64,000 nucleotides of DNA from Maribacter sp. 4G9 (GTDB lineage Bacteria > Bacteroidota > Bacteroidia > Flavobacteriales > Flavobacteriaceae), in contig NZ_MDGL01000035.1 in the NCBI RefSeq assembly GCF_002742265.1, positions 1 through 64,000 on the forward strand, written 5' to 3'. Numbering within the stretch: position 1 is the stretch's first letter; the number at the start of each line of letters is the position of its first letter. Shown here in pieces: positions 26,595 to 47,346 of the stretch. A program made the translations under genes and the position numbers. The notes under the pieces were generated by a model. The model was not told where the DNA came from, searched no databases, and worked only from the letters and a program-made list of their open reading frames with translations.

Positions 26595-28481
26595 TTATTT
26601 TATAATGACTGTTTTATTGTCTCCACAGGTTAACATTTTGGCTCCTAAATATGGGTTTTTAATAGCTTCATCAAGGCTTAACCAATAGGCTCCATTATTG
26701 TTGTCGGCCATTGGGCAAAATTGTTCATAGACCTTTTGGTTAACTCCAAATAATTTTACGCCTTTTGATAAATGCGCTGATAAATGCTTAAAGTGGCTAC
26801 GTTGTTCTTCTATATCTGAAATTTCTGAAATGGAACTAGCCGATCCTGAAACTTCTTTTGAAATGGTCATCCAGTGGTTATGTGCTTCATGGTCTGTCAA
26901 TTGTTTCATATCCACCTTTTTCATGGCATTCAATAAGGTTTTAGCCGATGTACTGGCTGTACTGCTATTATCACCTACAAAAGCATCTTTTAGTTTAATG
27001 TAAGCGTTGAACACTTGTTCTAATTGACCTTTAAACGCGTCGGTTGTTGTAATACGCTGGTTCATATCTGTGTGGTCAGAATCATTTTCCATTTTGGTAT
27101 GATCTGTTTCACCTTCCATTGTTGTGTTACTCATATCCATTTTAGAATGATCGACACCATCTGCATTTGCATCATCTCCCATAGGCATGCCACCATGATT
27201 ATGGCCTGTACTTACCTTACCACCTTCAGGGTTCATCATGCTTTTTTGGCCCAACAATTGTGCTGAGGCATCAATCCTGAACACGCCATTTGTGGCAACA
27301 ACTTCGCCTTCTTCCAAACCATCCTGAACAATGTAAAACTGCCCCATATCCTGTCCAAGTTCTATTTCCCTATAAACAAATGAAATGGTTTTTTCATGTG
27401 GTACTTTTACATAAACCACAGCGCGTTTTCCGGTCCAGAGTACAGCCGATTTTGGTATAACAATGGTATTCTCCATACCTTTCATTTTTGCCTGAATGAT
27501 ACCGCTGGCATACATTTCCGGAAGGAGTTTGTTACCAGGATTATTTACTTCAACACGTACTTTGGCAACTCGTGTATTGGATGATACAAAAGGATCGACA
27601 TAGGTGATTTTACCTTCAAAGGTTTTACCAGAGATAGCTTGTATGTTAAAACTTACCTTATCGTTAATGTGTATCCATGGAATATCGGCTTCATAGGCTT
27701 CAAACATCACCCAAACAGAGCTTAGATTGGCAATATCAAATAAGTTACCTCCAGCCTTGATATAGTCTCCAAGCTCAACATTTCTATTCATGACATAGCC
27801 TGTATGATCGGATAGAATATCGATTTGTTCCTGTACCTTTCCGGTTGCTTCGATGGCATCGATTTGTTTATCGGACAGTTTCCATAATTTTAATTTATTC
27901 CGTGATGCAGTATAAAGTTGCGGATAAATATCTTTAGACTTAATCGCTTCAAACAATTCTTTTTGCGCAGAAATCAGTTCTGGGGAATAAATACGTACTA
28001 TTTTTTGACCAGTATATACTTTTTCACCTGTAAAATTAACGTACAATCGTTCTATACGACCCGGAATATGAGACACTTGAGAATACAATCTACGTTCATC
28101 CGGTTTTACACGACCTAACAATCGTATCTCTTTGTCGGCACTTGCCTTTTCAACTATTGTAGTCTGTATATTTGCTAATTGATAGGCTTCTTCATTCATT
28201 ACAATTTCATTGGCTGCAATGTTTTCTGAAGAATCATCAGATGATTCCATTGGAATAAGTTCCATACCACAAATTGGGCAATTCCCAGGTTCTTCCATCT
28301 TTATTTGTGGATGCATAGAGCAAGTCCATAATTGTGTTACAGGGTCTTGAACATAATTGTGTTCCCCTTCCGCATGTGTAGTTTCTGAGTCTCCACCAGA
28401 AAACACATTTCCTAAAATAATTCCGAGTATTAAAATACCGGCTGCTATGATATAATTTTTATATTTTTCCATGATATTCAT
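26595..28481 (-). CDS. cusB: CusB-like RND adaptor with heavy-metal-binding N-terminus and fused DUF3347
   Basis: A 628-residue periplasmic adaptor linking CusA to CusC. An N-terminal membrane anchor (about 9-27) is followed by a small metal-binding segment (TCSMHPQIKMEEPGNCPICG, C54/C68/C71), then the hairpin, lipoyl and beta-barrel parts of HlyD-type adaptors (residues about 90-410). A Met/His-rich linker (430-480) leads to a DUF3347 domain near 480-625 with FCPMADNNNGAYWLS, IKNPYLG and MLTCG. This fusion ties DUF3347 to copper efflux. It starts 1 base after the cusC-like gene. ATG at 28481 or three codons later is possible. Confidence 0.92.
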   Translation of the reverse strand: MNIMEKYKNYIIAAGILILGIILGNVFSGGDSETTHAEGEHNYVQDPVTQLWTCSMHPQIKMEEPGNCPICGMELIPMESSDDSSENIAANEIVMNEEAYQLANIQTTIVEKASADKEIRLLGRVKPDERRLYSQVSHIPGRIERLYVNFTGEKVYTGQKIVRIYSPELISAQKELFEAIKSKDIYPQLYTASRNKLKLWKLSDKQIDAIEATGKVQEQIDILSDHTGYVMNRNVELGDYIKAGGNLFDIANLSSVWVMFEAYEADIPWIHINDKVSFNIQAISGKTFEGKITYVDPFVSSNTRVAKVRVEVNNPGNKLLPEMYASGIIQAKMKGMENTIVIPKSAVLWTGKRAVVYVKVPHEKTISFVYREIELGQDMGQFYIVQDGLEEGEVVATNGVFRIDASAQLLGQKSMMNPEGGKVSTGHNHGGMPMGDDANADGVDHSKMDMSNTTMEGETDHTKMENDSDHTDMNQRITTTDAFKGQLEQVFNAYIKLKDAFVGDNSSTASTSAKTLLNAMKKVDMKQLTDHEAHNHWMTISKEVSGSASSISEISDIEEQRSHFKHLSAHLSKGVKLFGVNQKVYEQFCPMADNNNGAYWLSLDEAIKNPYLGAKMLTCGDNKTVIIK

Positions 28482-28482
28482 T

Positions 28483-29748
28483 TTATTGTCCTATTAAGTA
28501 ATCCATAAATGCTGCTGCGGCATTTTTATCGGTTAATGCTTTTTGATGTTCTAATTCGTATTTAAGTAATTGCCGTTCTATTCGTAATACCTCTTCAAAA
28601 TCTTTGGCGTTTGTAGAGTACGATATAATTAATATGTCCAATACTTTTTTGGCAATTTCCGACTGTGTTAGGTTTAATGCAATACGACGGTCGCCATCGT
28701 TAAAATCCTTATACGTGTTTTCATACAACGAACTCAAGGTGTTCTTTTTGTCCTCTTTTCTGGAAATTTCGGCTTCTTGCCTAAACTGTGCTTCCTTAAT
28801 CAAGGCTTTATATTTTTTTCGATATAAAGGAATAGTAACACCTACCGATGGAAACAAAAACACGTCTTTACCATTATCTGATGCCGTTGACATAGGATTG
28901 TCACCAACTATGGTATAATTTACACCAACAGTAAACTTTGGCAATCCTTCTTTTTTAGCTACAATTTCCTGATTTAAAAAGGCATTCAATTTATGTTCTA
29001 TGCTTTTTATTTGATGGTTTGACGCATAAATTTCATCGAGCATACTTAATTGATCTAAAGGAATTTCTTCCTGCCACAAGACTTCCGGAACGATAATTTC
29101 AGAACTATCATCTATATCCAATAGGTTATTGAATTTTACCTGTAAGGCATCCTTGGTGTCCAGAAACAGTGCTAATTGATTTTCCAGATCGTTCAACTCC
29201 AATTCCACACGCAACTCATCAACAATAGAGGCTGTTCCAGCTTCAATTTTAACTAATGATAGGCGTTTAAAAACCTCGAGTATCTCGATATTCTCTTTTG
29301 TTATTTCAATAGCCTTTTCAATAAAATAATAATTATAATAAGCTGTTTTTACTTCAAAGAAAATATTGGATTTTGTGTTTTCAAAGTCTTCATATTTAGC
29401 TTTTGCCAATTCGGTGGCAACATCTTCCTGTGCACTCAAGAGGCCAAACCAAGGAAAGCTTTGTGCTAAATTAAAAGTTGCTCTTTGCGGTCCAACCCTT
29501 GTTTCTACTGGCTGGATAAAATATCCAAAAGCAAAAGTAGGATCTGGTAAAGTACCAACTTGAGGTACTTTTTCCATAGCAGCCATATAATCATAAAACT
29601 TTGCCTTTAAAGCAGGGTTATTATTGGCTGCTATTTCTAAATAGTTATTTAAATTTTCTTGACTGAAAATACTTGTTGTAAACAGTACAACTAGGCTCAA
29701 GAAAAGGTATGTTTTAGTATTCGCTGTCATCATTATAAATTTAAGCAT
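28483..29748 (-). CDS. cusC: TolC/CusC-family outer-membrane efflux protein
   Basis: A 421-residue outer-membrane factor. A signal peptide is followed by long helical repeats (FQNLNNYLEIAANNNPALKA-type start, then a GVNYTIVGDNP strand) typical of TolC trimers. It has no lipobox, unlike E. coli CusC. Its start overlaps the cusA end by 8 bases, and the CusB-like gene follows 1 base after its stop, so the three form one unit. It forms the exit duct for Cu/Ag in the tripartite pump. Confidence 0.88.
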   Translation of the reverse strand: MLKFIMMTANTKTYLFLSLVVLFTTSIFSQENLNNYLEIAANNNPALKAKFYDYMAAMEKVPQVGTLPDPTFAFGYFIQPVETRVGPQRATFNLAQSFPWFGLLSAQEDVATELAKAKYEDFENTKSNIFFEVKTAYYNYYFIEKAIEITKENIEILEVFKRLSLVKIEAGTASIVDELRVELELNDLENQLALFLDTKDALQVKFNNLLDIDDSSEIIVPEVLWQEEIPLDQLSMLDEIYASNHQIKSIEHKLNAFLNQEIVAKKEGLPKFTVGVNYTIVGDNPMSTASDNGKDVFLFPSVGVTIPLYRKKYKALIKEAQFRQEAEISRKEDKKNTLSSLYENTYKDFNDGDRRIALNLTQSEIAKKVLDILIISYSTNAKDFEEVLRIERQLLKYELEHQKALTDKNAAAAFMDYLIGQ

Positions 29749-32700
29749 TACTTGATTTTAATTGTTTTTTTAACCCTTTCTCTTTCCACATACTGTAAAG
29801 TACAGGTACTACAAACATGGTCATGACCTGTAACAGCATACCACCAAATGAAGGGATTGCCATGGGGATAACCACATCGGAACCTTTACCACTAGATGTA
29901 AGTACAGGGATTAAAGCAATGATAGCAGTCGCTGCGGTCATCATTGCGGGACGAACCCTTTTTGAACCTGCTTCAATTACCGAAGCCCGAATTTCTTTAA
30001 CGGTTTCTGGATGTCTCTTATCAAATACTTGGGTTAAATAAGTTCCCATAATTACCCCATCATCAGTTGCAATCCCGAACAAGGCAATAAAACCTACCCA
30101 AACGGCGACGCTCAGGTTTATGGTGTGCATCTGAAACAAATCACGCATATATACCCCAAATACATCAAAATTCAAGAACCATTCCTGTCCATATAACCAA
30201 ATCATGATAAAACCACCAGCGAAAGCTACAAAGATACCAGAGAAAACCATCAGTGAAGGAATCATTGATTTAAACTGAAAATATAGAATTAACAGAATTA
30301 CAATCAGAGAAATTGGCACCACGATCATTAAACGTTTTGATGCTCTTATCTGGTTTTCGTAATTTCCCGTAAAACGATAGGTTACACCTGCTGGTAATGT
30401 AAATTCGCCACTATCCATTTTCTGTTTGATAAGGGCTTGTGCATCTTCAACCACATTGGTTTCAGCATAGCCTTCTTTCATATCAAATATAACATAGCCT
30501 GTTAAAAAGGTATCTTCACTTTTTATGACTTGTGGTCCTCTAACATAAGTAACATCAGCTAATTCACCCAATTCTACTTGAACTCCTGCGGGTGTGGGGA
30601 TCAATATCTTTTTAATATCATCTGGATTGTCCCTAAACTCCCTGGCATAACGTACACGTACTGGAAAGCGCTCTCTACCTTCTACTGTTGTAGTTAGTTG
30701 TTTTCCACCTATGGCTACCGAGAGTTGCATTTGCATATCTTTTACGGATAGTCCATATCTAGACATGGCCTGACGGTTTAACTTCATTTCTAAATAAGGT
30801 TTACCAACAACTCTATCTGCAAACACGGTTGGTGGATTAACACTTGGTACTTCCTTTAGAATGTTTTCTAATTCAAACCCAACTTTTTCAATCGACTCCA
30901 AGGTGGGTCCAAATACTTTGATCCCCATTGGTGCTCGCATACCTGTTGCCAACATAATCAATCGTGTTTGGATAGGTTGCAGTTTTGGAGCTGATGTTAA
31001 CCCCGGGAATTTGGCGTGCTTAACAATTTCATTCCAAATATCATCTGGTTTTTGGATATGCTCTCGCCATTGCCTAAAGTTTTCACCGTCATCATCTGGA
31101 ATAAGTTCTTCTTCTGTTATTTTACGAAACTCGTCAGTACCATATGTATAGGTGGTACCATCTTTTAAAACAAAAGCGTTGTTTTTATTAACTTTAAAAC
31201 GCTCTCTGTGTCCATCTTCATCAAGAATATATTCTGGAATGTAATTTATGGTGTTTTCATACATGGATGTAGGTGCAGGATCAAGAGCAGAGTTTACACG
31301 TCCCCATTTACCTGCCGCAGACCCGATTTCAGGGATGGTCATGACGTGTTTATCAATACTTGCAATAACTTCCATATTTTCAGAAATACTAGAGTGTGGC
31401 ATGGTAGTGGGCATTAGCAAGAATGACCCTTCATTTAAGGCTGGCATAAACTCTTTACCCAACCCAGGGAGAACTTTGTCCAGTTTTTCCCAAACCACAT
31501 TGTTTTTAGTGAATTCCGGCATAAAACCAAGGACTTTGCCAAACCCTAACCAAATGGTCATTCCGAAGAAAACCAAGAGAATGGGGATTAATAAAAATTT
31601 CCATTTATTATCTAAACACCAGGTTAAAATGCTTTTGTAAAAATACACTACAGCCATTAATGCCCCCAAAACAACACCTATTACTATTATCACAAAAATA
31701 AAATTGACAAATGTAGAGTTAGCAACTCCTAAAGGCATCCATTCTATAGTCAGTAAGTAGACTAAAATTACAATTGCGATGGCTATATTGACATAATTGG
31801 CTGTTTTTTCGGAATAAGGAAGCTTTAATTTTCCTTTTAAAAAGGTTTTTTCCGGTACTTGTGTCAATAGATTATTTATACCAATGGCAATTAGGGCTAT
31901 GGCAATAATGCTTCCGTAAGCGATTAGGAAAACAAATCCAAAACTTATTAAGATTGCATTAAATATTCGACTCGTTCGCTTTGAATCAATTCTAATGGAA
32001 AACAGAACCTTTGCCAAGGCTGGAATAAACATAATACCAATGAACAGTGCTGAAATCAACGCAAATGTTTTGGTCCACGCCAAAGGACTAAATAACTTCC
32101 CTTCTGCGGCTTGCATTGCAAATACTGGTAAGAAACTCACAACAGTGGTAGCAAGAGCCGTAATTACAGCTCCTGCAACCTCCACCGTGGCAATATAAAT
32201 GACCTGCACCAATTTTTTACCTCTTACGCCTTCATTTTCGGGCATTTCCAGATGCCTGACTATATTTTCGGTAAAAACTATCCCCACATCGATCATTACA
32301 CCAATAGCAATGGCTATACCCGAAAGGGCAACAATATTGGCATCTACGCCAAAATATTTCATTAGTATAAAGGTCATCAATACGCCAACGGGCAATATAC
32401 TCGAAATTAATATGGAAGCCCTAAGATTAAGAACCAATACGATTACCACCAAAATACTAATCAGTATTTCATGAGAGAGCGCTAGTTCTAGAGTTCCAAT
32501 GGTTTCCTGAATTAAACCAGAACGGTCATAAAATGGTACAATAGTTACTTTGGAAACTGTGCCATCTTCTAGTGTTTTAGACGGTAATCCTGGAGCAACT
32601 TCATCTATTTTAGCCTTTAGGTTTTTAATTACAGCTTGCGGGTTGGCACCATAGCGTGCAACAGCTACTCCACCTACAGCTTCCACACCACTTTTGTCAA

Positions 32701-33580
32701 GGCCTCCTCTACGACCTGCTGGACCAAACTGTATTTTGGCTACATCTTTTAATCGTATGGGAACATTATCCCTAACGGTAACAACACTCTCCTCTAAATC
32801 AGATAAATTTTTAATATACCCTAGACCGCGAACTAAATATTCTACTTTATTAAATTCTAAAGTTCTGGCACCAATATCTAGGTTACTGTTTTGAACAGCG
32901 TTCATTATCATTTTAACGTCCACGTTGTTGGCCTTCATAGCATCAGGATCTATTTCGATCTGGTACTCTTTTAAAAAGCCTCCAATGGAAGCTACTTCGG
33001 CAACACCACTGGCAGCGGTTAAATAATAACGCACATAAAAATCTTGAATGGTTCGCAATTCTTGGGGGTCCCAACCTCCAGTTGGTTTGCCCGTTTTAGC
33101 ATCTCTACCTTCAAGAGTATACCAATATACTTGCCCTAATGCTGTGGCGTCAGGTCCAAGTGCTGGTGTTACCTCGTTAGGTACTGTACCAGGTGGTAAA
33201 GAATTTAGTTTTTCTAGAATTCTAGTTCTACTCCAGTAAAAATCAACGTCATCTTCAAATATGATGTAAATACTAGAAAGTCCAAATATTGAATTACTAC
33301 GTATGGTTTTCACGTTTGGAATACCAAGTAATGCTGTTGTTAATGGATAGGTTATTTGATCCTCTATATCCTGAGGAGATTGCCCCATCCACTCGGTAAA
33401 TACAATTTGTTGATTTTCGCCAATATCAGGAATGGCGTCAACAGGTACTGGGTTTCTCTCTATTAAAGAGCTTTCCCAATTAAACGGAGCAGTTACATAA
33501 CCTCCAACAATAAATGCGGCGAGTAATATAAATGTTATTAACTTATTTTCGAGAAAATAACGGATCGTTTTATTTAGCAT
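29741..33580 (-). CDS. cusA: CusA-type heavy-metal RND efflux pump
   Basis: A 1279-residue inner-membrane RND transporter, longer than the usual 1040 residues. It has WMGQSPQDIEDQITYPL, NSIFGLSSIYIIF, LSGIAIAIGVMIDVGIVFTENI (the heavy-metal RND DxG signature of helix 4), FMPALNEGSFLLMP and TDDGVIMGTY. The extra length comes mainly from inserted membrane and loop segments between 540 and 640 and near 790-870. It exports Cu(I)/Ag(I) using proton motive force, with the periplasmic Met pairs probably acting in relay. It heads cusACB, and HYC_CC_PP precedes it by about 107 bases. Confidence 0.92.
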   Translation of the reverse strand: MLNKTIRYFLENKLITFILLAAFIVGGYVTAPFNWESSLIERNPVPVDAIPDIGENQQIVFTEWMGQSPQDIEDQITYPLTTALLGIPNVKTIRSNSIFGLSSIYIIFEDDVDFYWSRTRILEKLNSLPPGTVPNEVTPALGPDATALGQVYWYTLEGRDAKTGKPTGGWDPQELRTIQDFYVRYYLTAASGVAEVASIGGFLKEYQIEIDPDAMKANNVDVKMIMNAVQNSNLDIGARTLEFNKVEYLVRGLGYIKNLSDLEESVVTVRDNVPIRLKDVAKIQFGPAGRRGGLDKSGVEAVGGVAVARYGANPQAVIKNLKAKIDEVAPGLPSKTLEDGTVSKVTIVPFYDRSGLIQETIGTLELALSHEILISILVVIVLVLNLRASILISSILPVGVLMTFILMKYFGVDANIVALSGIAIAIGVMIDVGIVFTENIVRHLEMPENEGVRGKKLVQVIYIATVEVAGAVITALATTVVSFLPVFAMQAAEGKLFSPLAWTKTFALISALFIGIMFIPALAKVLFSIRIDSKRTSRIFNAILISFGFVFLIAYGSIIAIALIAIGINNLLTQVPEKTFLKGKLKLPYSEKTANYVNIAIAIVILVYLLTIEWMPLGVANSTFVNFIFVIIVIGVVLGALMAVVYFYKSILTWCLDNKWKFLLIPILLVFFGMTIWLGFGKVLGFMPEFTKNNVVWEKLDKVLPGLGKEFMPALNEGSFLLMPTTMPHSSISENMEVIASIDKHVMTIPEIGSAAGKWGRVNSALDPAPTSMYENTINYIPEYILDEDGHRERFKVNKNNAFVLKDGTTYTYGTDEFRKITEEELIPDDDGENFRQWREHIQKPDDIWNEIVKHAKFPGLTSAPKLQPIQTRLIMLATGMRAPMGIKVFGPTLESIEKVGFELENILKEVPSVNPPTVFADRVVGKPYLEMKLNRQAMSRYGLSVKDMQMQLSVAIGGKQLTTTVEGRERFPVRVRYAREFRDNPDDIKKILIPTPAGVQVELGELADVTYVRGPQVIKSEDTFLTGYVIFDMKEGYAETNVVEDAQALIKQKMDSGEFTLPAGVTYRFTGNYENQIRASKRLMIVVPISLIVILLILYFQFKSMIPSLMVFSGIFVAFAGGFIMIWLYGQEWFLNFDVFGVYMRDLFQMHTINLSVAVWVGFIALFGIATDDGVIMGTYLTQVFDKRHPETVKEIRASVIEAGSKRVRPAMMTAATAIIALIPVLTSSGKGSDVVIPMAIPSFGGMLLQVMTMFVVPVLYSMWKEKGLKKQLKSSNA

Positions 33581-33686: not shown

Positions 33687-34103
33687 TCAAATAAGGAAAG
33701 TCTGATCTAGAACTTGAACGTCCCGTATCAGCGGAGGGGGGAGATAATCTTTAAAAGGAACGATTTTCTTATCGAATCCTTCGTAAAGGTTTATATAGGA
33801 ATATATAAATGAAACAACAAAGAGTTGTTTCTCCGTGCTTAGTTTTTCAAATGAAACCTTTAAATCATCTTGGCCCGAAATGGCCAAGGTTTGATCCTCG
33901 CAAAAACCTTTTTCATCGAGACTGTCGTCATGTGATTCACTGGCTTGTTCCATTTCCATACCACAGGATTCCGCTTTACCGAAAAAGGAAAAATCCACCA
34001 AAACATCGCCACAATAATGTTGCTCGACCGCAAAGGAAAAGGTGGAGAACAGCATTGTAAGTGTCATCGCAAAGGATGTTATTTTGTGAAAAATGCTTTT
34101 CAT
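33687..34103 (-). CDS. HYC_CC_PP-family exported protein (variant without CC)
   Basis: A 138-residue protein with a signal peptide ending at FSFA (about 25), EQHYCGDVLVDFSFFGKAESCGM, a middle Cys (KGFCEDQ), and a C-terminal part with PFKDYLPPPL and DQTFLI. It matches the HYC and PP hallmarks of the family, but the central CC pair is reduced to one Cys. The family is found near copper efflux genes in Bacteroidota. It heads the cus gene set and shares a palindromic promoter element with the second family member (47459-47881). Copper binding is inferred from the spaced Cys/His. Confidence 0.82.
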   Translation of the reverse strand: MKSIFHKITSFAMTLTMLFSTFSFAVEQHYCGDVLVDFSFFGKAESCGMEMEQASESHDDSLDEKGFCEDQTLAISGQDDLKVSFEKLSTEKQLFVVSFIYSYINLYEGFDKKIVPFKDYLPPPLIRDVQVLDQTFLI

Positions 34104-34187: not shown

Positions 34188-34195
34188 CAAACCTA
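34188..34195 (-). promoter_or_regulatory. -7 box of the HYC_CC_PP/cus promoter
   Basis: The minus strand reads TAGGTTTG (TAnnTTTG). Its upstream edge lies exactly 20 bases from the palindrome at 34216-34233, the same spacing as at the other HYC_CC_PP gene. The position where a -33 TTTG would lie overlaps the palindrome edge (TGTC), so activation by a regulator is plausible. The leader before the ATG at 34103 would be about 80 bases. Confidence 0.5.
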
Positions 34196-34215
34196 GTTGA
34201 TTTTGATTTTTTATG

Positions 34216-34233
34216 ACATGATAAATATCATCT
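34216..34233. promoter_or_regulatory. Palindromic operator candidate, HYC_CC_PP/cus promoter
   Basis: ACATGATAAATATCATCT contains the inverted repeat GATGATA/TATCATC-like arms (TGATA-AA-TATCA at its centre). In the direction of transcription it aligns with ACATGACAATGGTCATGT upstream of the second HYC_CC_PP gene, sharing ATGA and TCATGT. Candidate binding site for one of the CxxC AraC regulators. Confidence 0.5.
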
Positions 34234-34372: not shown

Positions 34373-36604
34373 ATGTGGAAGCCGTTTTTAGTATTCTTCT
34401 TTCTCCTCTTTCATATCCATGTACTGAGCCAAAAAAATCCCGATGGGCAAGATTCTACGGCCCTTAAAACCGAAATGTTGAACGAGGTCATTGTGAACGG
34501 TAACGCCATACTAGGTAGTACGTTCGAGGCAAAGAACAGAACAGGTTCTGCGGTCTACATATCGGAAAAAGAGCTCCTAAAATTTAGTTATAACGATATT
34601 AACAGAACGCTAAAAAGTGTACCCGGGGTCAATATATATGAAGAAGATGGGTTTGGTCTTCGACCAAATATTAGTTTACGGGGTACCTCACCTGAGCGGA
34701 GTGCGAAGATTAACCTTATGGAAGATGGTGTCTTAATTGCCCCGGCCCCATATAGCGCCCCGGCAGCTTATTATTTTCCGACCATTGGCCGAATGCAAGC
34801 TATGGAAATATTAAAAGGAAGCAGTCAAATTCAGTATGGCCCAAATACGACAGGCGGAGCGATCAACATGATTTCAACTCGCATTCCCGACCAACTTTCG
34901 GGAAGGGTCGTGTTGTCTGCCGGTAATTTCAACTCAAGAAATACACAGGTCGTTGTAGGTGATAACTATCAGAATTTTGGGTTTGTTAGTGAATACTACA
35001 ACTATAATTCTGATGGTTTCAAAAACTTGGACGGCGGTGGCAATACAGGTTTTGATAAATCGGATTATTTGGCAAAGTTCCGCATAAGTACTGATGAAGA
35101 TGCCAGATTCTATCAGTCCCTTCAATTTAAAATTCAGTATTCCGAAGAAAAGGCCAATGAAACGTATTTGGGACTTACAGATATAGATTTCAAGGAAAAT
35201 CCATACCGCAGGTATCGGGCTTCGTCAAAAGATGTGATGGATTCAGAACACCAACAGTACCAATTGACCCATTTTTTAAAACTTTCCCCGGCACTGAGCA
35301 TACATACCACAGGATACCTTAATAAGTCCAACCGCAATTGGTATAAACTGGATGACGTTAATCTGGGGGAGCGTGTCGGAATTAACAATGTGCTCGCAGA
35401 CCCTAAGAGTTATGTCATGGAATACAATGCATTATTGGGAAATACCGATACGGCCGAAGACGTGTTCGGTATAAAGGCAAACAACAGAACATACACCTCA
35501 AATGGTGTTCAATCCATAGCCAAATTACGATGGGGCTCTGATTGGTCGCAAAATCTAGAGTTGGGAATCAGATACCATGAGGATGACGAGGACAGGTTTC
35601 AATGGGTAGATAGGTACGGATTTCAAAATAGCGAACTCATACGCACAACGGTCGGTACTAAGGGAGCCGATGCCAACCGTATTGGTTATGCGAAAGCCGT
35701 CGCCGTGCATTTTTTATATAAATTAAGTATTAACGGACTGACAGTTACTCCAGGCCTGCGCTATGAGAATATAACGTTGGGTAGAACGGATTATGGAAGC
35801 AACGATGCCGCGAGGTCGGGCATTGACCTTTCCGAAAGGGAGAACAGGGTAGATGTTTGGATACCGGGATTGGGTGCCAATTATAGCTTTGCCAATAATT
35901 TGTCCGTTTTTGGTGGAATTCACAAAGGGTTTTCTCCTCCAGGAAATACTGACGGCCAAAATCCGGAACAAAGCATAAATTACGAACTGGGCACACGTTT
36001 CAACCACAGTGGTCTAAAAGGCGAAATAATAGCGTACTATAATGATTATCAAAACCTACTGGGCAGCGACCTTGCCGCCACTGGCGGTACGGGCAGCCTT
36101 GACCAATTCAATGCGGGCGAGGTACGGGTAGGCGGGGTAGAGGTATTGTTGAACTACGATTTTTTAAAGAACAGCTCCGAAAAGTTAAGACTTCCCGTAT
36201 CGGTATCCTATACCTTGACCGACACCAAGTTCCTCAGTTCCTTTGAAAGTGATACCGATATATTCGGAGAGGTTACAGAAGGGGATGAAATTCCTTACAT
36301 CGCCAAAAATCAGTTTAATTTGAATCTTGGATTGGAGCATGAAAAATTTGCACTAGATATAGGTTTGCGCTATACCGACGCCTTTAGGACGCAAGCGGGA
36401 ACGGGCACAATACCGGAAAACCAAAAAGTAGATTCCAATTATGTTATTGACCTGTCGGGTCGATATTTTTACAATAAACACCTTACCTTTTCTACGAACA
36501 TTATCAATTTATTGGATGAAACCTATGCGGTATCCAGGGTTCCGGCAGGGCTAAGACCGGGGCATCCTTTTGGCATCAACTTTTCACTAGCCTATGGTTT
36601 TTGA
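34373..36604 (+). CDS. TonB-dependent outer-membrane receptor, FecA-like
   Basis: A 743-residue outer-membrane barrel. A signal peptide (to about LSQ20) is followed by a plug domain with EVIVNGN, NISLRGTSPERSAKINLMED and PAPYSAPAAYYFP, then EILKGSSQIQYGPNTTGGAIN, strings typical of FecA/ferric-dicitrate type receptors. The barrel ends in INFSLAYGF with a terminal Phe. It has no STN domain, so it would not signal to FecR directly. It imports a metal chelate. Ferric citrate or another carboxylate complex is likely, but copper-related substrates cannot be ruled out. The gene stands alone, convergent with fecI. Confidence 0.85.
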   Translation: MWKPFLVFFFLLFHIHVLSQKNPDGQDSTALKTEMLNEVIVNGNAILGSTFEAKNRTGSAVYISEKELLKFSYNDINRTLKSVPGVNIYEEDGFGLRPNISLRGTSPERSAKINLMEDGVLIAPAPYSAPAAYYFPTIGRMQAMEILKGSSQIQYGPNTTGGAINMISTRIPDQLSGRVVLSAGNFNSRNTQVVVGDNYQNFGFVSEYYNYNSDGFKNLDGGGNTGFDKSDYLAKFRISTDEDARFYQSLQFKIQYSEEKANETYLGLTDIDFKENPYRRYRASSKDVMDSEHQQYQLTHFLKLSPALSIHTTGYLNKSNRNWYKLDDVNLGERVGINNVLADPKSYVMEYNALLGNTDTAEDVFGIKANNRTYTSNGVQSIAKLRWGSDWSQNLELGIRYHEDDEDRFQWVDRYGFQNSELIRTTVGTKGADANRIGYAKAVAVHFLYKLSINGLTVTPGLRYENITLGRTDYGSNDAARSGIDLSERENRVDVWIPGLGANYSFANNLSVFGGIHKGFSPPGNTDGQNPEQSINYELGTRFNHSGLKGEIIAYYNDYQNLLGSDLAATGGTGSLDQFNAGEVRVGGVEVLLNYDFLKNSSEKLRLPVSVSYTLTDTKFLSSFESDTDIFGEVTEGDEIPYIAKNQFNLNLGLEHEKFALDIGLRYTDAFRTQAGTGTIPENQKVDSNYVIDLSGRYFYNKHLTFSTNIINLLDETYAVSRVPAGLRPGHPFGINFSLAYGF

Positions 36605-36661
36605 AATAAAAATCGAAGATTACATATTGTTGTACCTAATGGTATAAAGGTATTTTTGGTT

Positions 36662-37246
36662 CTATTCCGTATAGCGAAGAATCACGAATAAAACGTGGAT
36701 CTTATCCTTCAATTTCTTCCTTAAAATTTTAAGGGCCTTAGTAAGATGACCTTCTACCGTTTTTATGGATAAACCTAGGTAATCTGCGATTTCATTATTG
36801 GTCAATCCTTCCTTTTTACTCAACAAAAATACTTTACTACATTTTTTTGGAAGATTTTGAATTTCCCTTTCAACAATTTCCATTTTGTAACGTAACTCCT
36901 CTTCATTTTCTGTTTGGATGGTATTATCCAATGCATCGGCATAAGCCATTTCCAACAATTGGGTCTCTTTGTTATACTTCTTTATATGGTCCAGGAACGT
37001 ATTCCGAACCGATTTATATAGCCATCCCCTAATTAAGACCCCCTCCTTTAAAATGCCCCTTTTTTTCCATAGTTTAAAAAATGCTTCTTGGGTAAGGTCC
37101 TTTGCCAAAGTCTCATCACGGCTTAAGCTTTTGGCATACCAATAGACTTCTTTGTAATACAAATCAATGACCGTCTTGAATGCCGATTTATCTCCATTTC
37201 GGATTGCACTGACATCAAGATTCCCGTTACGATCCTTTGAATTCAT
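36662..37246 (-). CDS. FecI-like ECF sigma factor
   Basis: A 194-residue sigma-70 family protein with region 2 (YYKEVYWYAKSLSRDETLAKDL, then AFFKLWKKR) and region 4 (IQNLPKKCSKVFLLSKKEG, then NEIADYLGLSIKTVEGH). It lacks region 3, as in ECF factors. It should be held by FecR and released through the STN-bearing SusC protein. Unusually, the gene is divergent from fecR (115 bases apart), while Bacteroidota usually place fecI just upstream on the same strand. Its target promoter probably drives the susC gene, by inference. Confidence 0.9.
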   Translation of the reverse strand: MNSKDRNGNLDVSAIRNGDKSAFKTVIDLYYKEVYWYAKSLSRDETLAKDLTQEAFFKLWKKRGILKEGVLIRGWLYKSVRNTFLDHIKKYNKETQLLEMAYADALDNTIQTENEEELRYKMEIVEREIQNLPKKCSKVFLLSKKEGLTNNEIADYLGLSIKTVEGHLTKALKILRKKLKDKIHVLFVILRYTE

Positions 37247-37361
37247 AAACTATTTTAACAAAAAATCTTCAAAACTAAAGGTAAATATAAATAAAAAGCA
37301 AGGGTATTGTAAAGTTCAGTCGTTTGGTAAGTATTCATTGGCATTATCTTAATATTTCATA

Positions 37362-38517
37362 ATGAAAAAAAGGAATATCAAAATCATCGTTCATAAATTC
37401 CTGTGCAATACCGCCACTACTGAGGAAATTGAATTTTTGACAAAATGGGTTCAGAAAAATAAGTTGAGTTTTCAAGAAGATGTTCAATTGAACCATCTCG
37501 TTACAGGGCTTTTTGAGGAAGAAAAAGCGGAACGCCTGAAAAGAGACTTGTTGGAGAATTTTGAACAATTCGAAATTAGGGAAAGAAGAAATCAAATGTT
37601 TAATTTACTAAAATATGCCGCTTTCTTCATTGGTATTATTGTGGTCGGCACTTTATTTTATTTGAGGGGAAGTACGGAGAAAGATTTACCCCAAAAGCAA
37701 ATCACCATTACTTTGGGAGACGGATCAACCAAGGAAATCTTGAATGTTGAATCCTCTGAACTCATATCAAGCTCCGGTACTTATGCGGCCGAGCAGGAAG
37801 GAAGCAAAATCATTTACAAAAAAAAATCGGGAAAAACCTTGAAAAACTCTGGGCCATTGGTGTACAATACTCTGGAAGTCCCTTATGGTAAAAAATTCGA
37901 GATAGTATTGTCTGACGGTACCGAGGTATACTTAAACACTGGGTCGTCCTTGACATATCCCGTGGCTTTTTACGATGAAGGACCTCGCAACGTAGTTTTA
38001 AGGGGGGAGGCCTACTTTTACGTCAAGTCAGACTCCCTGAGACCTTTCTCTGTGGACGCAGGTTTGTTGGACACAAGGGTTTTGGGCACAGAATTCAATA
38101 TCTCCAATTACCCGGATGACCAATACACCAAAGTCGTCTTAGTAGAAGGTAGTGTATCTATAAATAAAGGGGAGGATCCTGCAAGTCAGGCTATTTTTTT
38201 GAAGCCATACCAAATGGCATCTTACTACGTCTCCAGCGCAAATTTAGCAGTGTCCGATGTTGATGTAAGCAGCCATATTGCATGGAAGGATGGGATATTA
38301 CTTTTTAAAAACGAGGATTTTTATCGGATCACCAAAAAGCTTGAAAGACATTATGATATCGAAATCAATATTTAAGGACGTAGAGGTGAGCCAAGAAAGA
38401 TATACCGGAAGATTTAAAACGGAAACCATCGATGAGGTACTACGGGCGTTCCAGCGAATAAAGGAATTCGAATATTCGAATGACGAAGATAAAATAGAGA
38501 TAAACCCTAAAAAGTAG
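37362..38517 (+). pseudogene. FecR-like anti-sigma factor, split by a +1 frameshift
   Basis: The first frame (37362-38375) gives 337 residues: a cytoplasmic start, a membrane helix near 83-100, and a FecR domain (LPYGKKFEIVLSDGTEVYLN-like, TEFNISNY). It ends in KLERHYDIEINI followed by TAA at 38373. The remaining C-terminal module (DVEVSQERYTGRFKTETIDE, then LRAFQRIKEFEY) continues in the +1 frame to 38517. Removing one T from TTT (38371-38373) joins them into a normal DUF4974-type end. It is therefore either a real mutation, a sequencing error, or a programmed shift. If real, signalling from SusC would be affected. Confidence 0.8.
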
Positions 38518-38618
38518 ACGTATGATATAAACAAAAGAATCAGGGACTGCTCTAACAATCCCTGGATTCCAAATGAATTTAAAAACTAATTAGCCAATTT
38601 CTAAACTCTCTCAAAAGT

Positions 38619-41600
38619 ATGAAAAACACTCTATGTAGAAGCTATTTTACGATTAAAATGGACCTAAAAATGAAGATAACCGCATTGTTATTATTGGTTG
38701 CCCTATTCCAACTTAGTGCCAAGAATGCGTATTCCCAAAAGGGAAAAATTTCGATGAATATGGAGGATGCTACCATTGAGTCCATATTTAATGAAATAGA
38801 AAGACAGACGGATTTCAACATCCTGTACAAAAATTCCACCCTGGACACAAGCAGAAAAGTAACGATAAAGGCGGATAAAGTTAAAATTGAAGATTTAATG
38901 GACCTTGTTTTAAAGGAAACCAATGTTTCTTTTGAAATAAGGAGAAAACTTATTGTTCTTCTGGAAAAGAAGATAGTTCCGAGAATGAAAATCAAGACAT
39001 CATCCTTGGATACTCCCAAGATAATGCAGCAGACAATGACGGTAACCGGCTTGGTAACCGATCAAGACAATGTGCCCTTGGGCGGGGTAAGTATAGTGGT
39101 CAAAGGCTCCACAAAAGGGGTTTCCACCAATTTTGACGGGGAATATGAAATCGAAGTCTCGGAAGGTGATATTCTTGTATTCTCATACATTGGCTTCGCT
39201 TCACGTGAAGTTACTGTTAAACAAGAAAAAAGTATTAACGTGACCCTGCAGCCAGATCTTATGGACCTTAATGAGGTAATCGTTACCGCAACTGGGGTAC
39301 GCCGTAAAGTTGAGATGGGCAATTCCATTGCCAATCTCAATGTTGCAGATGACGTAAAACAACGCCCAATAAGCAATGTTTCAGATCTGCTTCAGGGCCA
39401 GGCGACCGGTGTTCAAATTTCCAGTAGTGGGGGTTCTACCGGCATGGGCTCCCGTATTAGGGTAAGGGGTTCCAATAGTGCATCCCTCTCCAACGAGCCG
39501 GTAATATATGTTGACGGAGTTCTTATCAACAACGAGGCCAATTCCATCTCGTTTGAAACAGGTGGGCAGTCTCCTTCGAGGTTAAACGATATCAACCCAG
39601 AGGATATTGAATCTATCGAAATCATCAAGGGGCCTTCAGCAGCGACCTTGTACGGGTCAATTGCGGCGAACGGTGTGATTCGTATTACTACTAAAAAAGG
39701 GAAGCAAGGGGAACCGAGATGGTCCGCTTTTATGGAGAGCGGTATTGTAGAGAATGTGACGACCTATCCTTTAAATTATCAGGCACTTGATGCCCAAGGT
39801 AATCCTGGTTTCAATTTTGAAGCGGCCGACGGCACTTTTGTCCCCAGTACGGTCAATTCCTTTCAGGCCTTGAACGACCCGCGCACCTCGCCCTTTAGAA
39901 CAGGGCAGTCTTATGGTGCCGGATTAAGCGTATCGGGAGGTTCGGAAGTACTTACCTATTTTCTGTCAGGTAGTCTTACCGACGGTGAAGGTGTACTACC
40001 TGTAAACAATATAAAAAGGACGAATTTCAGAGGAAATTTTGGGGCCAAAATTACCGATGACCTAAAAGTTAATTTAACCACGGGCTACACTAACAGTAAT
40101 CTAGAATTACCCTTGAACGATAATTTTGCCTTGGGGCTGATGGGCCAAGGCCTTAATGGTACACCCTCGATAGACTTAAATAACGGTTGGGGCGAATTTA
40201 CTCCTGATGAATTGTTCACAATCGATACCCGACAAAAAATCAACCGTTTTACTTCGGGTCTCGAGATTTTATGGCAACCTACCGAGAAACTGAATGTTAG
40301 GGCTTCTGGTGGACTTGATTTTACTTCACGTTGGGACAGTCAATTTTTCCCAACGGGAGAAGCGCCGGCTTTTCTCAACTATGACCAAGGTGCCCGATTT
40401 TCCAATAGGTTTAACGACTTTGTCTATACCCTCGATATGGTGGGGTCTTACAAAACGGATTTATGGAAAGGGATAAATTCACGTACCTCCCTTGGGTTTC
40501 AGTATTTACAGAATTTATCGCAGGGTACATTTGCAACCGGGCTTCTGTTGGTTGCCGGCAGCAACTCCATTGCCGGGGCCGCTGTTACACAAAGTAACGA
40601 ACAGACCATCGAATCACGTACCGTTGGTGTCTTTTTGGAGGAACAGATAGGCTTTAATGATAAACTATTCGTAACTGGTGCTGTACGGGCAGATCGTGGA
40701 AGTTCTTTCGGTGCCTCATTCAATTCTGTATTTTACCCAAAGGTGAGTGCCTCTTGGCTCATTTCGGAGGAAGATTTCTTTAATGATTCCGATAAATACG
40801 GAATAAACTCCTTACGGCTCAGGGGGGCTTGGGGCTCCTCTGGGGTTCAGCCAGGTACAAATGACGCATTAAGGTTTTTCAATCCTATCGCGGCTACCTT
40901 GGACGGGCAAAGTGTAACCGGGGTAACCATTGGAAGTGTAGGAAATACCGGTTTAAGTCCAGAGATATCCTCAGAAGTTGAATTTGGTTTTGATGCCAAA
41001 CTATTATCCGATAGAATCGGCCTTGAAATGACGTATTTCAATAAACGTACGGAGGATGCCCTAATTTTCAGGCAATTACCATTATCTCTCGGAGTGGGTG
41101 AAGGCCGTTTTGAAAATTTGGGTTCCGTAAAAAACTCGGGGATCGAAATAGCGTTGAATACTAGAATCATCGAGACCGACAAGTTTTTCTTTGGACTGGA
41201 TTTCGTAGGTTCTTTTATCGATAACGAGCTGATTGAACTTGGTGAGGGCATCCAGCCGGTCATATTTGGTCAGCAACGTCATGTTGAAGGATACCCTCTT
41301 GGTGGGTATTGGGACGAAACCTATACCTTTAACGATGCCAATGGTGATGGTTTCATTGGGCAAGATGAAATTCAAGTAGGAGAAACAGGTTATTTGGGTG
41401 CCCCGTTTGCAACCACCGATATTACTTTTACCCCCACCCTAAGTTTTTTCGAAAATCAATTTGTGCTGAAAGGACTTCTTAACTATAGAGGCGGTCAAAA
41501 GCTGTATAACAATACCGGTGCATGGAGAAATGGGAACAGTAATAACCAAGAACTAAACGACCCCAATGCCTCGCTTGAAGATCAGGCCAGGGCCGTTGCT

Positions 41601-41882
41601 TCAAAATTTTTGGGAACAAATGCAGGTTATATCGAAGATGCTTCTTTTTGGAGGCTTCGTGAAATCTCATTGACCTATAACGCACCGGGCACCTTTTCAA
41701 GCAAACTTGGTTTTGACCGTATAAGCCTTACACTTTCTGGACAGAATTTGGGAGTATGGACAGATTACTCCGGACTAGATCCCGAAATAAGTTCTGAGGG
41801 ACAAGCCAATTTTACCACCGAAGAATTTCTCAGTCAACCACCTATACGTTCTTGGAAAGCAAGACTGAATCTATCTTTTTAA
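38619..41882 (+). CDS. SusC/RagA-type TonB-linked outer-membrane protein with STN domain
   Basis: A 1087-residue outer-membrane protein. After a signal peptide comes an STN domain (ISMNMEDATIESIFNEIERQ, about residues 45-115) that contacts FecR. A carboxypeptidase-like beta-sandwich follows (VTGLVTDQDNVPLGGVSIVV), then the plug (LNEVIVTATGVRR, GQATGVQISSSGG, VRGSNSAS) and the barrel ending in LNLSF. It imports a glycan or oligopeptide-like ligand with the SusD partner. No glycoside hydrolase is nearby, so the substrate is not indicated. The fecR gene lies 101 bases upstream. Alternative starts lie 13-17 codons in. Confidence 0.92.
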   Translation: MKNTLCRSYFTIKMDLKMKITALLLLVALFQLSAKNAYSQKGKISMNMEDATIESIFNEIERQTDFNILYKNSTLDTSRKVTIKADKVKIEDLMDLVLKETNVSFEIRRKLIVLLEKKIVPRMKIKTSSLDTPKIMQQTMTVTGLVTDQDNVPLGGVSIVVKGSTKGVSTNFDGEYEIEVSEGDILVFSYIGFASREVTVKQEKSINVTLQPDLMDLNEVIVTATGVRRKVEMGNSIANLNVADDVKQRPISNVSDLLQGQATGVQISSSGGSTGMGSRIRVRGSNSASLSNEPVIYVDGVLINNEANSISFETGGQSPSRLNDINPEDIESIEIIKGPSAATLYGSIAANGVIRITTKKGKQGEPRWSAFMESGIVENVTTYPLNYQALDAQGNPGFNFEAADGTFVPSTVNSFQALNDPRTSPFRTGQSYGAGLSVSGGSEVLTYFLSGSLTDGEGVLPVNNIKRTNFRGNFGAKITDDLKVNLTTGYTNSNLELPLNDNFALGLMGQGLNGTPSIDLNNGWGEFTPDELFTIDTRQKINRFTSGLEILWQPTEKLNVRASGGLDFTSRWDSQFFPTGEAPAFLNYDQGARFSNRFNDFVYTLDMVGSYKTDLWKGINSRTSLGFQYLQNLSQGTFATGLLLVAGSNSIAGAAVTQSNEQTIESRTVGVFLEEQIGFNDKLFVTGAVRADRGSSFGASFNSVFYPKVSASWLISEEDFFNDSDKYGINSLRLRGAWGSSGVQPGTNDALRFFNPIAATLDGQSVTGVTIGSVGNTGLSPEISSEVEFGFDAKLLSDRIGLEMTYFNKRTEDALIFRQLPLSLGVGEGRFENLGSVKNSGIEIALNTRIIETDKFFFGLDFVGSFIDNELIELGEGIQPVIFGQQRHVEGYPLGGYWDETYTFNDANGDGFIGQDEIQVGETGYLGAPFATTDITFTPTLSFFENQFVLKGLLNYRGGQKLYNNTGAWRNGNSNNQELNDPNASLEDQARAVASKFLGTNAGYIEDASFWRLREISLTYNAPGTFSSKLGFDRISLTLSGQNLGVWTDYSGLDPEISSEGQANFTTEEFLSQPPIRSWKARLNLSF

Positions 41883-41899
41883 CATAAAAATTCAAGAAA

Positions 41900-43237
41900 A
41901 TGAAAAAGTCAATTAATGTAAAAAAAAACTATTCCAAATTTATTTTTAGCGCCATTGTCTTGATGGCATTGACATCGTTGTGCATATCATGCGATTCGGT
42001 GGTAGAAGTCACAGATCCCGATATCGTTACCCCGGAATCACTGAACAGTGAGGCCGGTATACAAACCCTTCGCGCGGGTTCCTTAGGAGATCTAGCAGTG
42101 GCCATGAGCGGTTCCGCTGCAGGTCATGGTGCCACTACGGGTCTAATTGTTATGAGCGGCCTTATGGCTGATGAGTATGCCTATTCAGGAACCTTTCCCA
42201 CCAGACGCGAGGCCGATACCCGTAATCTTCAAGATATCAACAGTGACGTAAATACAATTTATGGCAACCTGCATAGATCGCGAACGGGCGCCGAAACTAC
42301 GGTTGACCTTCTTGCCGATTTCGGTGGAAACCCAGAAATTGAAAGTGAGATGCAAAGCGTTACTGGCTACGCTTATGTCATGTTCGCGGAAACCTTTTGC
42401 GGTGGGGTGCCGTTCAGCAAGGCCCCTGCCGATGGTGGAGAATTGATCTATGGCGAGCCTTTGACCACCGAACAAATGTTCAACCAGGCGATAAGTTGGT
42501 TCGATCAAGCTATCGCCAACGCTGGCAGCAATGATAAATTGGCGAACCTAGGGCGGGTAGGCAAGGCTCGCTCCCTTTTGGGTCTAGGGCAAATGGATGC
42601 GGCAGCCGCTGAAGTAGCTGCTATTCCAACAGATTTTGTTTATAATATTGAGCAATCCGACAACAGTCGAAGACAAGAAAACGGTATTTACATTATGAGT
42701 ACCGTTCGCCGCCAGTTTTCTATCGCCGACGGAAAGGGAGGAAACGGCTTAATGTTCCGCTCTTCCATGGATCCCAGGACGCCTTGGGACGGCGGTACGG
42801 AATTTGGGCAGGATGATATTACCTTGTATTACAATCAGCTAAAATATGATTCTTCCAATGTGCCCGTAGTCTTGGCTTCTGGAACGGAGGCAAGATTGAT
42901 CGAGGCCGAGGCCGCCGCCAATGCGGATGATGCTACCACCGTGGAGGACATACATAATGCACTTAGGGCTACTATAGGTCTGTCAGATTTAGACCTCTCA
43001 GGAATTAGCGGTGACGACCTATTGCTGGCCCATTTTTCGGAGCGTGCATTTTGGCTCTTCAGTACCGGTCATCGACTAGGCGACCTTAGAAGACTTGTGG
43101 ACGTTTACGGCATGATGCCCTCGAATGTCTTTCCGTGGGGGCCTTATTTCAAGGGAGGGGAATATAGTACAAACCTTAAATTTCTAGTTCCACAGTCAGA
43201 ATCGAACAACCCTAATTATGTAGGCTGTTTAGATTAA
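41900..43237 (+). CDS. SusD/RagB-family lipoprotein
   Basis: A 445-residue surface lipoprotein with the lipobox CISC (Cys about 31) and SusD-like helices (GQMDAAAAEVAAIP repeat region, TEARLIEAEAA and a closing FPWGPYFKGGEY). It binds the substrate over the SusC barrel. It begins 18 bases after susC. It is shorter than the usual 500-plus residues, and the family similarity is moderate, in the RagB-like branch that accepts non-glycan cargo. A terminator hairpin follows, so the susCD transcript ends here. Confidence 0.82.
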   Translation: MKKSINVKKNYSKFIFSAIVLMALTSLCISCDSVVEVTDPDIVTPESLNSEAGIQTLRAGSLGDLAVAMSGSAAGHGATTGLIVMSGLMADEYAYSGTFPTRREADTRNLQDINSDVNTIYGNLHRSRTGAETTVDLLADFGGNPEIESEMQSVTGYAYVMFAETFCGGVPFSKAPADGGELIYGEPLTTEQMFNQAISWFDQAIANAGSNDKLANLGRVGKARSLLGLGQMDAAAAEVAAIPTDFVYNIEQSDNSRRQENGIYIMSTVRRQFSIADGKGGNGLMFRSSMDPRTPWDGGTEFGQDDITLYYNQLKYDSSNVPVVLASGTEARLIEAEAAANADDATTVEDIHNALRATIGLSDLDLSGISGDDLLLAHFSERAFWLFSTGHRLGDLRRLVDVYGMMPSNVFPWGPYFKGGEYSTNLKFLVPQSESNNPNYVGCLD

Positions 43238-43260
43238 ATTGATCACTAAAAAATAGATGG

Positions 43261-43293
43261 AAAAGAGGCTGCTAAAAAAGCCTCTTTTCTTTT
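43261..43293 (+). terminator. Rho-independent terminator after susCD
   Basis: AAAAGAGGCT (43261-43270) pairs perfectly with AGCCTCTTTT (43279-43288) around an 8-base loop, followed by a T-rich tail. It lies about 25 bases after the SusD gene stop. Confidence 0.85.
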
Positions 43294-43301
43294 TATGTTT
43301 G
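43294..43301 (+). promoter_or_regulatory. -7 box for the spermidine-synthase-like gene
   Basis: TATGTTTG matches TAnnTTTG, starting directly after the terminator T-run and 31 bases before the ATG at 43333. No clear -33 box is seen because the terminator occupies that place. Confidence 0.4.
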
Positions 43302-43332
43302 TATAATACCACATTATCAACGACCATTTTTT

Positions 43333-45879: not shown

Positions 45880-45936
45880 CGAAGTGTCTGAAAACATTAA
45901 ATATTTTAAAAAAACTTTAGAATAATCAAAGAACAT

Positions 45937-46701
45937 ATGAAACTATTAAATCACAAACCATTTCCGTTTTCCATCCCGATAATCCTGCTCATATTGCATT
46001 TTAATCCCTTAGTAGCGCAAGAAAGCGTCGTAGACAAAGCCATTGAGGTATCGGGTATGGAAAAAATGAAAAATGCGGAGGCTTCCTTTTCCTTCCGTAA
46101 ACATACCTATAGTTACAAACGGCAAAACGGACAATTTACTTATACAAGAATCGGTAAGAACAAGGACAGCAGTATGGTAAGGGATGTATATACCAATAAA
46201 GGGTTTACCCGATATATTGACGATGCCGTGGCATCTATCACGGAGGAAAGAAAAAATGCGTATACAAATTCAGTCAATTCCGTAATGTACTTTGCATTTC
46301 TGCCCTTGTGGCTCAAAGACCAAGCTGTTGTTCTTGAGAATAAGGGCACCACCTCTATCAAAGGAAAAGAATACCATAAGATCCGCGTAACCTTTAAAAA
46401 GGAGGGCGGTGGCGTTGATTATGAAGATGTGTTCCTTTACTGGTTCGATGTTGAGGATTATAGTATGGACTACTTGGCCTATAAGTACTTTACCGGTAAA
46501 GGAGGGATGCGGTTTCGCGAGGCATATAATCAACGTACCGTTAACGGCGTTACCATACAGGATTATCGGAACTTGCAACCGAAAATAAAAGATGCGGTTC
46601 CTTTCGAACAAATTGAAAAAGCCTTTGAAAATGGAAAATTGGAAGAGCTTTCCATTATAGAATTAAAAAATGTGAAAATCTCAACACTGCCCAAAATTTA
46701 G
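45937..46701 (+). CDS. Exported protein, DUF6503-like
   Basis: A 254-residue protein with a signal peptide (to about VAQ28), ESVVDKAIEVSGMEKMKNAE, FSFRKHTYSYKRQNG, a VFLYWFDVEDYSMDYLAY centre and a beta-rich layout (TSIKGKEYHKIRVTFK). It resembles the DUF6503 proteins of Flavobacteriaceae, as far as I remember them, which have a lipoprotein-carrier-like half-barrel. It has no catalytic motif. It lies 57 bases after the spermidine-synthase-like gene and may share its transcript. A function cannot be given. Confidence 0.65.
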   Translation: MKLLNHKPFPFSIPIILLILHFNPLVAQESVVDKAIEVSGMEKMKNAEASFSFRKHTYSYKRQNGQFTYTRIGKNKDSSMVRDVYTNKGFTRYIDDAVASITEERKNAYTNSVNSVMYFAFLPLWLKDQAVVLENKGTTSIKGKEYHKIRVTFKKEGGGVDYEDVFLYWFDVEDYSMDYLAYKYFTGKGGMRFREAYNQRTVNGVTIQDYRNLQPKIKDAVPFEQIEKAFENGKLEELSIIELKNVKISTLPKI

Positions 46702-46762
46702 ATTTGGTATGTCTAGCTGTTTTTCCAAAGGTAAAACCTATTACTCACGAAAATGGATCTAT

Positions 46763-47338: not shown

Positions 47339-47346
47339 TACATTTG
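47339..47346 (+). promoter_or_regulatory. -7 box of the HYC_CC_PP 2 promoter
   Basis: TACATTTG matches TAnnTTTG. It lies 20 bases after the palindrome core and about 112 bases before the ATG at 47459, the same arrangement as the cus-linked HYC_CC_PP gene. Confidence 0.5.

Follow-up and report, generated by a model that had tools for sequence, protein, structure and literature searches.

A palindrome at fixed spacing from two HYC_CC_PP promoters of Maribacter sp. 4G9 as a predicted Crp/Fnr-type site used across the Flavobacteriaceae

Described systems closest to the locus

Class II control by Crp/Fnr-family activators, for which -41.5 is the class II position, is already known, and the half-site consensus of FNR is TTGAT. 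The Cus system of Escherichia coli is controlled by CusRS and is most important without oxygen. Palindromes of the Crp/Fnr family vary with the residues of the recognition helix, as in the HcpR, DNR and NnrR regulons, for which the motifs are given as wTGTGAnnnnnnTCACAw, wyTTGACnnnnGTCAArw and GTAACnnnnGTTAC (PMC1274295). The predicted HcpR2 regulon of Bacteroides and P. gingivalis consists of hcp genes only (PMC1274295).

We analyzed a stretch of 64,000 nucleotides from Maribacter sp. 4G9 (positions 1 to 64,000 of contig NZ_MDGL01000035.1, here called the window), in which two HYC_CC_PP family genes, HYC1 and HYC2, have a common palindrome in their promoters. This palindrome is most probably the site of a Crp/Fnr-family activator that would be used across the Flavobacteriaceae, in class II fashion, at low-oxygen and stress genes including HYC1-cus and HYC2-AraC. 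Like FNR class II promoters, the box has a predicted centre at -41.5 and targets that include ccoN, hemN and nadA. Its half-site is ATGAY, one letter off the TTGAT of FNR, and unlike in FNR systems it works with the Bacteroidota promoter TAnnTTTG. The motifs given for the HcpR, DNR and NnrR regulons are also unlike the box (PMC1274295).

Two further comparisons concern the genes around the box. On gene content only, the genome resembles FixLJ-FixK and DosRS in that a PAS histidine kinase gene adjoins a response regulator, but it differs from FixJ/FixK and DosR in that a single protein combines the receiver with the Crp-type DNA-binding domain. As in E. coli Cus, a CusA/CzcA-family RND pump occurs together with an adaptor and an outer-membrane component, its metal specificity being read from its family only. 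Unlike E. coli cus, these genes have a predicted Crp/Fnr-type site and HYC_CC_PP leader genes.

The palindrome at the two HYC promoters and in related loci

HYC1 (33687..34103, minus strand; 138 aa; NF047658, 112.8 bits, cut-off 28) is the first gene of a cus-type operon. It is directly followed by a CusA/CzcA-family heavy-metal RND pump (29741..33580, minus; TIGR00914, 726.2 bits, cut-off 701.45), a TolC-like outer-membrane component that is CusC-like by position (28483..29748, minus; TIGR01844, 43 bits, below the cut-off of 225) and a CusB-like RND periplasmic adaptor (26595..28481, minus; TIGR01730, 111.8 bits, cut-off 94.9; CusB model PRK09783, 105.8 bits, below the cut-off of 390). HYC2 (47459..47881, plus strand; 140 aa; NF047658, 90.4 bits, cut-off 28) precedes AraC-HMA2 (48063..48644, plus), an AraC-type HTH protein of 193 aa (PF12833, 46.3 bits). 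Its short, CxxC-bearing N-terminus is presumably HMA-like, and no Pfam match to an HMA domain was found in the protein. The segment between the two arms (34373..47191) encodes a TonB-dependent receptor, an ECF sigma factor, a FecR-like protein, SusC/SusD-like proteins, a Rieske protein and others, several of these gene names being our assumption.

The palindrome of the HYC1-cus promoter, AGATGATATTTATCATGT (34216-34233, minus strand), is the 18-mer of the earlier note and lies 20 bp from the -7 box TAGGTTTG (34188..34195, minus). At the HYC2-AraC promoter, the 18-mer ACATGACAATGGTCATGT (47301-47318, plus strand) lies 20 bp from the box TACATTTG (47339..47346, plus). Direct reading therefore confirmed what the earlier note had seen, a common palindrome exactly 20 bases from TAnnTTTG at both promoters. 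The 14-bp cores, ATGATATTTATCAT (34218..34231, minus) and ATGACAATGGTCAT (47303..47316, plus), fit ATGAY-N4-RTCAT and end exactly 22 bp 5' of the box. Both have a two-fold symmetry of Crp/Fnr size, with half-sites of the TGA-N6-TCA type. In F. psychrophilum, the TAnnTTTG box occupies -12 to -5 (PMC9723704). Together with the fixed 22-bp spacing, this places the palindrome at -48 to -35, with a predicted centre at -41.5 at these Crp/Fnr-type sites and predicted transcription starts at about 34183 and 47351.

The palindrome alone was unremarkable, with 44 window matches at up to three mismatches against 34.8 expected, and 10 of 100 shuffles reached 44. The combination of a 10/10 palindrome with a 6/6 box at 22 bp (16/16) was found in the window only at these two places, the next best place of the filtered scan reaching 13/16. 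The window scan found no further strong sites before other metal genes of the window, and the third HYC gene of the genome had no perfect palindrome within 5 kb. A weak site (22472-22515, minus; 8/10 palindrome, 5/6 box at 22 bp) lies 5' of a DUF302 gene (21957-22415), and a DUF302-like gene on contig C182 has a perfect palindrome upstream. Elsewhere in the window, a 170-aa ORF (4911-5423) is closely like the end of a 573-aa reductase-like ORF (9039-10760) that we take to be MerA-like, as if it were a partial second copy.

We compared loci chosen by likeness to the HYC or AraC-HMA2 proteins, in which neighboring genes were labeled by BLAST to the window proteins. Both of our tests demanded a perfect palindrome; the strict one also demanded 5/6 or more box letters at 22 bp, and the looser one 4/6 or more. 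Among 71 HYC genes with unique upstream DNA, 43 passed the strict test at 22 bp, the other offsets between 10 and 33 giving 0-5, while none of the 702 other genes of the HYC loci passed even the looser test. The strict test was passed by 26/33 HYC2-AraC genes, by 16/27 HYC1-cusA genes with HYC2 in the locus (11/27 HYC1 arms of paired loci failing it) and by 1/11 HYC1-cusA genes without HYC2. Of the 19 loci found with HYC2, some of which are HYC1-cusA genes without HYC2, 10 passed. The six HYC1 sequences closest to our own, which is included in the count, all have the site, two of them with identical upstream DNA, and the site is kept in orthologs of other genera despite altered spacer and N4 letters. 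The site is conserved at the closest orthologs of both HYC1 and HYC2. With one motif and one spacing at two promoters, a shared regulator is well supported, probably one kind of regulator.

The site is not a property of HYC_CC_PP genes at large. A scan of such promoters, as the earlier note had proposed, was positive at the HYC1/HYC2 metal locus and negative in general, with the motif in 0/24 parsed loci among the 30 best-scoring of the family. Among the 30 closest HYC1 relatives, 7/29 parsed loci had a perfect palindrome and 22/29 did not. We rejected the wider possibility on these counts.

Both arms have a perfect palindrome in 24 loci, and in 21 of these the divergent cusCA-HYC1 and HYC2-AraC arms use one and the same palindrome, with 237-411 bp between HYC1 and HYC2. 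The other three loci (the window, L139 and L216) have separate palindromes, 2.9-13.4 kb lying between the arms and about 13 kb in the window. By identical stretches, L190 duplicates L143, and L231, which is among the 21, duplicates L147. Because of these duplicates and of exact 600-bp stretches common to several loci, 21/24 and 43/71 overstate the number of independent cases. In the simplest scenario for the separated arms, a divergent pair would have been broken up by an insertion, after which both arms kept their site or acquired it anew. Exact stretches of at least 600 bp common to different genomes were seen in L146, L148-L150, L153, L219-L222 and other loci. Their presence in metal loci suggests that the island has recently spread between genera.

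Distribution of the box in the genome, family and phylum

ATGAY-N4-RTCAT occurs in 46 places of the Maribacter sp. 4G9 genome, the reversed pattern in 14, and about 35 are expected from the base composition of the window. At exactly 22 bp, 19/92 site-strands of the genome have at least 5/6 box letters, against 0-2/92 at each other offset from 10 to 28. Thus, it is the coupling of palindrome and box, not the palindrome alone, that is far from chance.

The genes 3' of the genome sites encode universal stress proteins, PfkB, patatin, the S30AE ribosome-hibernation protein and an M50/CBS protease, and another target is a gene run with PEP-synthase-like, phosphotransacetylase and acetate kinase genes. 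Clusters of sites are seen on contigs C5, C158 and C182. The regions concerned (L023, L048-L050) are stress- or dormancy-like clusters, in which many boxes surround the genes of the REC-Crp fusions and a PAS kinase. They encode many universal stress proteins, PfkB, Hsp20, acetate kinase, phosphotransacetylase, a PEP-synthase-like protein, S30AE and a CBS protease, a set that to us recalls the mycobacterial DosR set.

On the window's own contig, an FNR-like gene (C35:220421-221107) is divergent from a heavy-metal ATPase gene. The intergenic region holds a 9/10 site that is flanked on each side by a box 22 bp away, TACTTTTG (6/6) and AACCTTTG (5/6). A cbb3 oxidase ccoN/O gene on this contig also has a 9/10 site upstream, with TAATTTTA at 22 bp. 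The FNR-like regulator adjoins both the heavy-metal ATPase and the ccoN/O genes (L051, C35:213000-228000, at 7419-8108).

Across 149 genomes of the family, the strict pattern had 582 matches in 118 genomes, against one match of the reversed-pattern control and about four expected from composition. We surveyed targets in 30 loci, one per genome, of which 29 gave an ORF behind the box. Pfam assigned ten target ORFs to cytochrome c, thioredoxin, radical SAM, NadA, Usp, PEPCK, COX1, PPDK, E1-E2 ATPase and S30AE, and the NCBIfam cut-offs were passed by hemN, nadA and ccoN; the copper-ATPase NCBIfam model was missed, at 145 of 397 bits, by a truncated ORF. Overall, the targets across the family include ccoN, heavy-metal ATPase, hemN, nadA, usp, pepck, ppdk-like and S30AE genes. 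Another of the loci, L101, qualifies on both sequence and position as an independent HYC gene, although its 113-aa ORF had no NCBIfam match at 1e-20.

The regulon is therefore not the copper regulon that the earlier note had envisaged, since the identical site and spacing precede hundreds of non-copper genes. A copper-only regulon was rejected on the ccoN, hemN, usp and other non-copper targets, and on the positive genomes that lack AraC-HMA. Under oxygen limitation, F. psychrophilum is reported to induce its cbb3 oxidase and heme-synthesis enzymes strongly (PMC9723704), and genes of these two kinds are box carriers here. The terms 'fnr', 'crp' and 'palindrom' are absent from the main text of that paper (PMC9723704).

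A scan of 247 genomes of the phylum found 46 positive, with three matches of the reversed pattern. These comprise 26/27 genomes of the family (our own included), 3/3 others of the order, 11/31 of the class and 6/186 beyond. Outside the family, targets were viewed at nine loci. In one class-level relative (L206), the strict pattern lies 5 bp 5' of a 127-aa response-regulator-like ORF, hinting at a link between the box and receiver proteins beyond the family.

Candidate regulators and competing readings

The FNR-like protein (C35:220421-221107) has the Crp/Fnr fold of the FNR proteins of E. coli and Aliivibrio fischeri (PF00027 + PF13545, 64.6 and 54.9 bits, both over the cut-off). Its residues 4-225 align to FNR chains, such as 5cvr_A (E 3e-23), and the nearest solved chain is the Crp/Fnr-family protein 2gau. 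Three of the four cluster cysteines of solved FNR align, at C5, C8 and C107, whereas Asn occupies the fourth position. The protein lacks the FNR cysteine that is equivalent to C29, and another cysteine, C54, is invariant; C5, C8, C54 and C107 are all invariant in 21/21 FNR-like proteins. Because the fourth cysteine is missing, we call the protein FNR-like rather than FNR proper, and it also missed the NCBIfam Fnr cut-off, at 107.7 of 228 bits. It is probably an Fe-S sensor responsive to oxygen or NO.

The genome also encodes two REC-CRP fusions of a receiver with cNMP-binding and HTH_Crp_2 domains (PF00072 + PF00027 + PF13545), one each on C158 and C182. Upstream of the gene of one fusion there is a site with a box 22 bp away, and the gene of the other overlaps that of a PAS histidine kinase (L050:6126-7643, adjoining the response regulator). 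The recognition helix E-x-x-I-R is found in 21/21 FNR-like and 22/22 REC-CRP proteins (20 + 1 and 20 + 2 aligned). It resembles the E-x-x-S-R of FNR, with Ile at the serine position. The two kinds of protein cannot be told apart by their site.

We scored regulators as present at BLAST E-values of 1e-40 for FNR-like and REC-CRP and of 1e-15 for AraC-HMA. FNR-like orthologs were detected in 91 of the 149 family genomes and REC-CRP in 66, with 13 of up to 79 REC candidates scored per genome. The mean number of strict matches was 0.5 in genomes with neither (n=28), 3.9 with REC-CRP only (n=30), 3.24 with FNR-like only (n=55) and 7.58 with both (n=36). Genomes with either regulator were positive in 113/121 cases, against 5/28 with neither, and the Fisher P of 9e-16 is not to be taken literally because the genomes are related. 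The exceptions are 14 matches in the 5/28 genomes without a detected regulator and no matches in 8/121 genomes with one. Motif numbers thus follow the FNR-like and REC-CRP orthologs and, among genomes of at least 2.5 Mb, not AraC-HMA.

We infer from these data how the promoters may be controlled. A Crp/Fnr dimer would bind directly, reading the two ATGAY half-sites, and from the predicted -41.5 position would activate rather than repress sigma-A transcription at the TAnnTTTG box, as a class II activator. The FNR-like protein and the two response-regulator-Crp fusions (C158, C182) are the candidate readers, and they may be triggered by low oxygen, by the signal from the PAS kinase adjoining one fusion, or by both. 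HYC1-cus efflux and HYC2-AraC-HMA2 would be switched on together, along with cbb3 oxidase, heme, universal-stress and dormancy-like genes. Such a response could help the cell to manage metal while Cu(I) is the dominant form or while copper is being delivered to the cbb3 oxidase. The best reading of the locus would be a metal-efflux system wired into a Crp/Fnr low-oxygen/stress regulon, to which AraC-HMA2, adjacent to HYC2, may add copper-dependent control.

The competing reading that survives best is dual control, in which the Crp/Fnr activator at -41.5 sets the level according to oxygen or stress while AraC-HMA2, acting at another site, makes expression depend on metal. Control by metal is usual for metal-efflux genes, and the conserved adjacency of AraC-HMA2 beside a Crp/Fnr-type site fits this account. 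However, a 64-bp stretch of 27 aligned HYC2 sites contained no second conserved element besides the palindrome, a T-run and the box. We give dual control somewhat less than an even chance. It is unlikely that a Crp/Fnr paralog other than FNR-like and REC-CRP reads the HYC sites. The genome does have six HTH_Crp_2 matches, one below the family cut-off, but all 11 sampled genomes with a close AraC-HMA2 ortholog (at least 64% identity) have FNR-like or REC-CRP (three both, three FNR-like only and five REC-CRP only).

The earlier note had named AraC-type proteins as the regulator, and we consider it slightly more improbable still that the palindrome is bound by AraC-HMA2 (and AraC-HMA1), which would activate both arms when copper is sensed. 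AraC-HMA2 is indeed directly 3' of HYC2 at 33 of the 71 HYC genes with unique upstream DNA and is the sole conserved regulator gene recognized in the locus. Yet the same site and spacing are found before ccoN, hemN and usp, and AraC proteins usually bind direct repeats. AraC-HMA was detected in 75/149 genomes, and 53 of the 74 without it have the motif (240 matches). In the 122 genomes of at least 2.5 Mb, mean matches were 4.76 with AraC-HMA and 4.29 without (P = 0.31); across all 149, the means were 4.56 and 3.24, a gap that goes with small genomes. AraC-HMA was therefore rejected as the reader of the palindrome. We likewise rejected, as having a negligible probability, the idea that two AT-rich palindromes beside a common promoter box resemble each other by chance: loose palindromes are frequent in the window, but conservation in other genera with changed spacer and N4 letters, the 22-bp coupling in genome and family, and the 0/702 control genes contradict it.

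Returning to the Crp/Fnr reading, we lean slightly towards a fuller version of it. The Flavobacteriaceae would have a regulon for low oxygen and dormancy that is marked by a box of its own, ATGAY-N4-RTCAT, lying at -41.5 in TAnnTTTG promoters. This would be read by an Fe-S FNR-like protein with altered cysteines and by kinase-driven REC-Crp fusions that share its recognition helix, and a horizontally moving metal-efflux island would join it via one palindrome firing two divergent operons.

In the literature searched, beyond whose reach most subscription papers lie, we found neither the box nor the control of HYC_CC_PP genes described, and the literal patterns ATGANNNNNNTCAT, ATGACNNNNGTCAT and ATGATNNNNATCAT did not occur. 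As far as searched, then, four elements are undescribed: the box; its use with a Bacteroidota promoter; its putative reading by two kinds of protein, an altered FNR-like one and the REC-Crp fusions; and its placement in a metal-efflux island. An observation on two promoters has thereby become a testable regulatory code for a whole family, with a box of rigid spacing, named candidate regulators and a list of targets. The host group is large, comprises aquatic and soil bacteria, and its oxygen and stress regulation is poorly mapped. The code predicts that metal efflux is tied to oxygen or dormancy signals instead of, or besides, copper, and any flavobacterial data set on transcription start sites or oxygen shifts could test the box directly. 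As a separate observation on the regulators, the FNR-like and REC-CRP genes lie about 1-2 kb or less apart in four genomes (G110, G071, G134 and G121).
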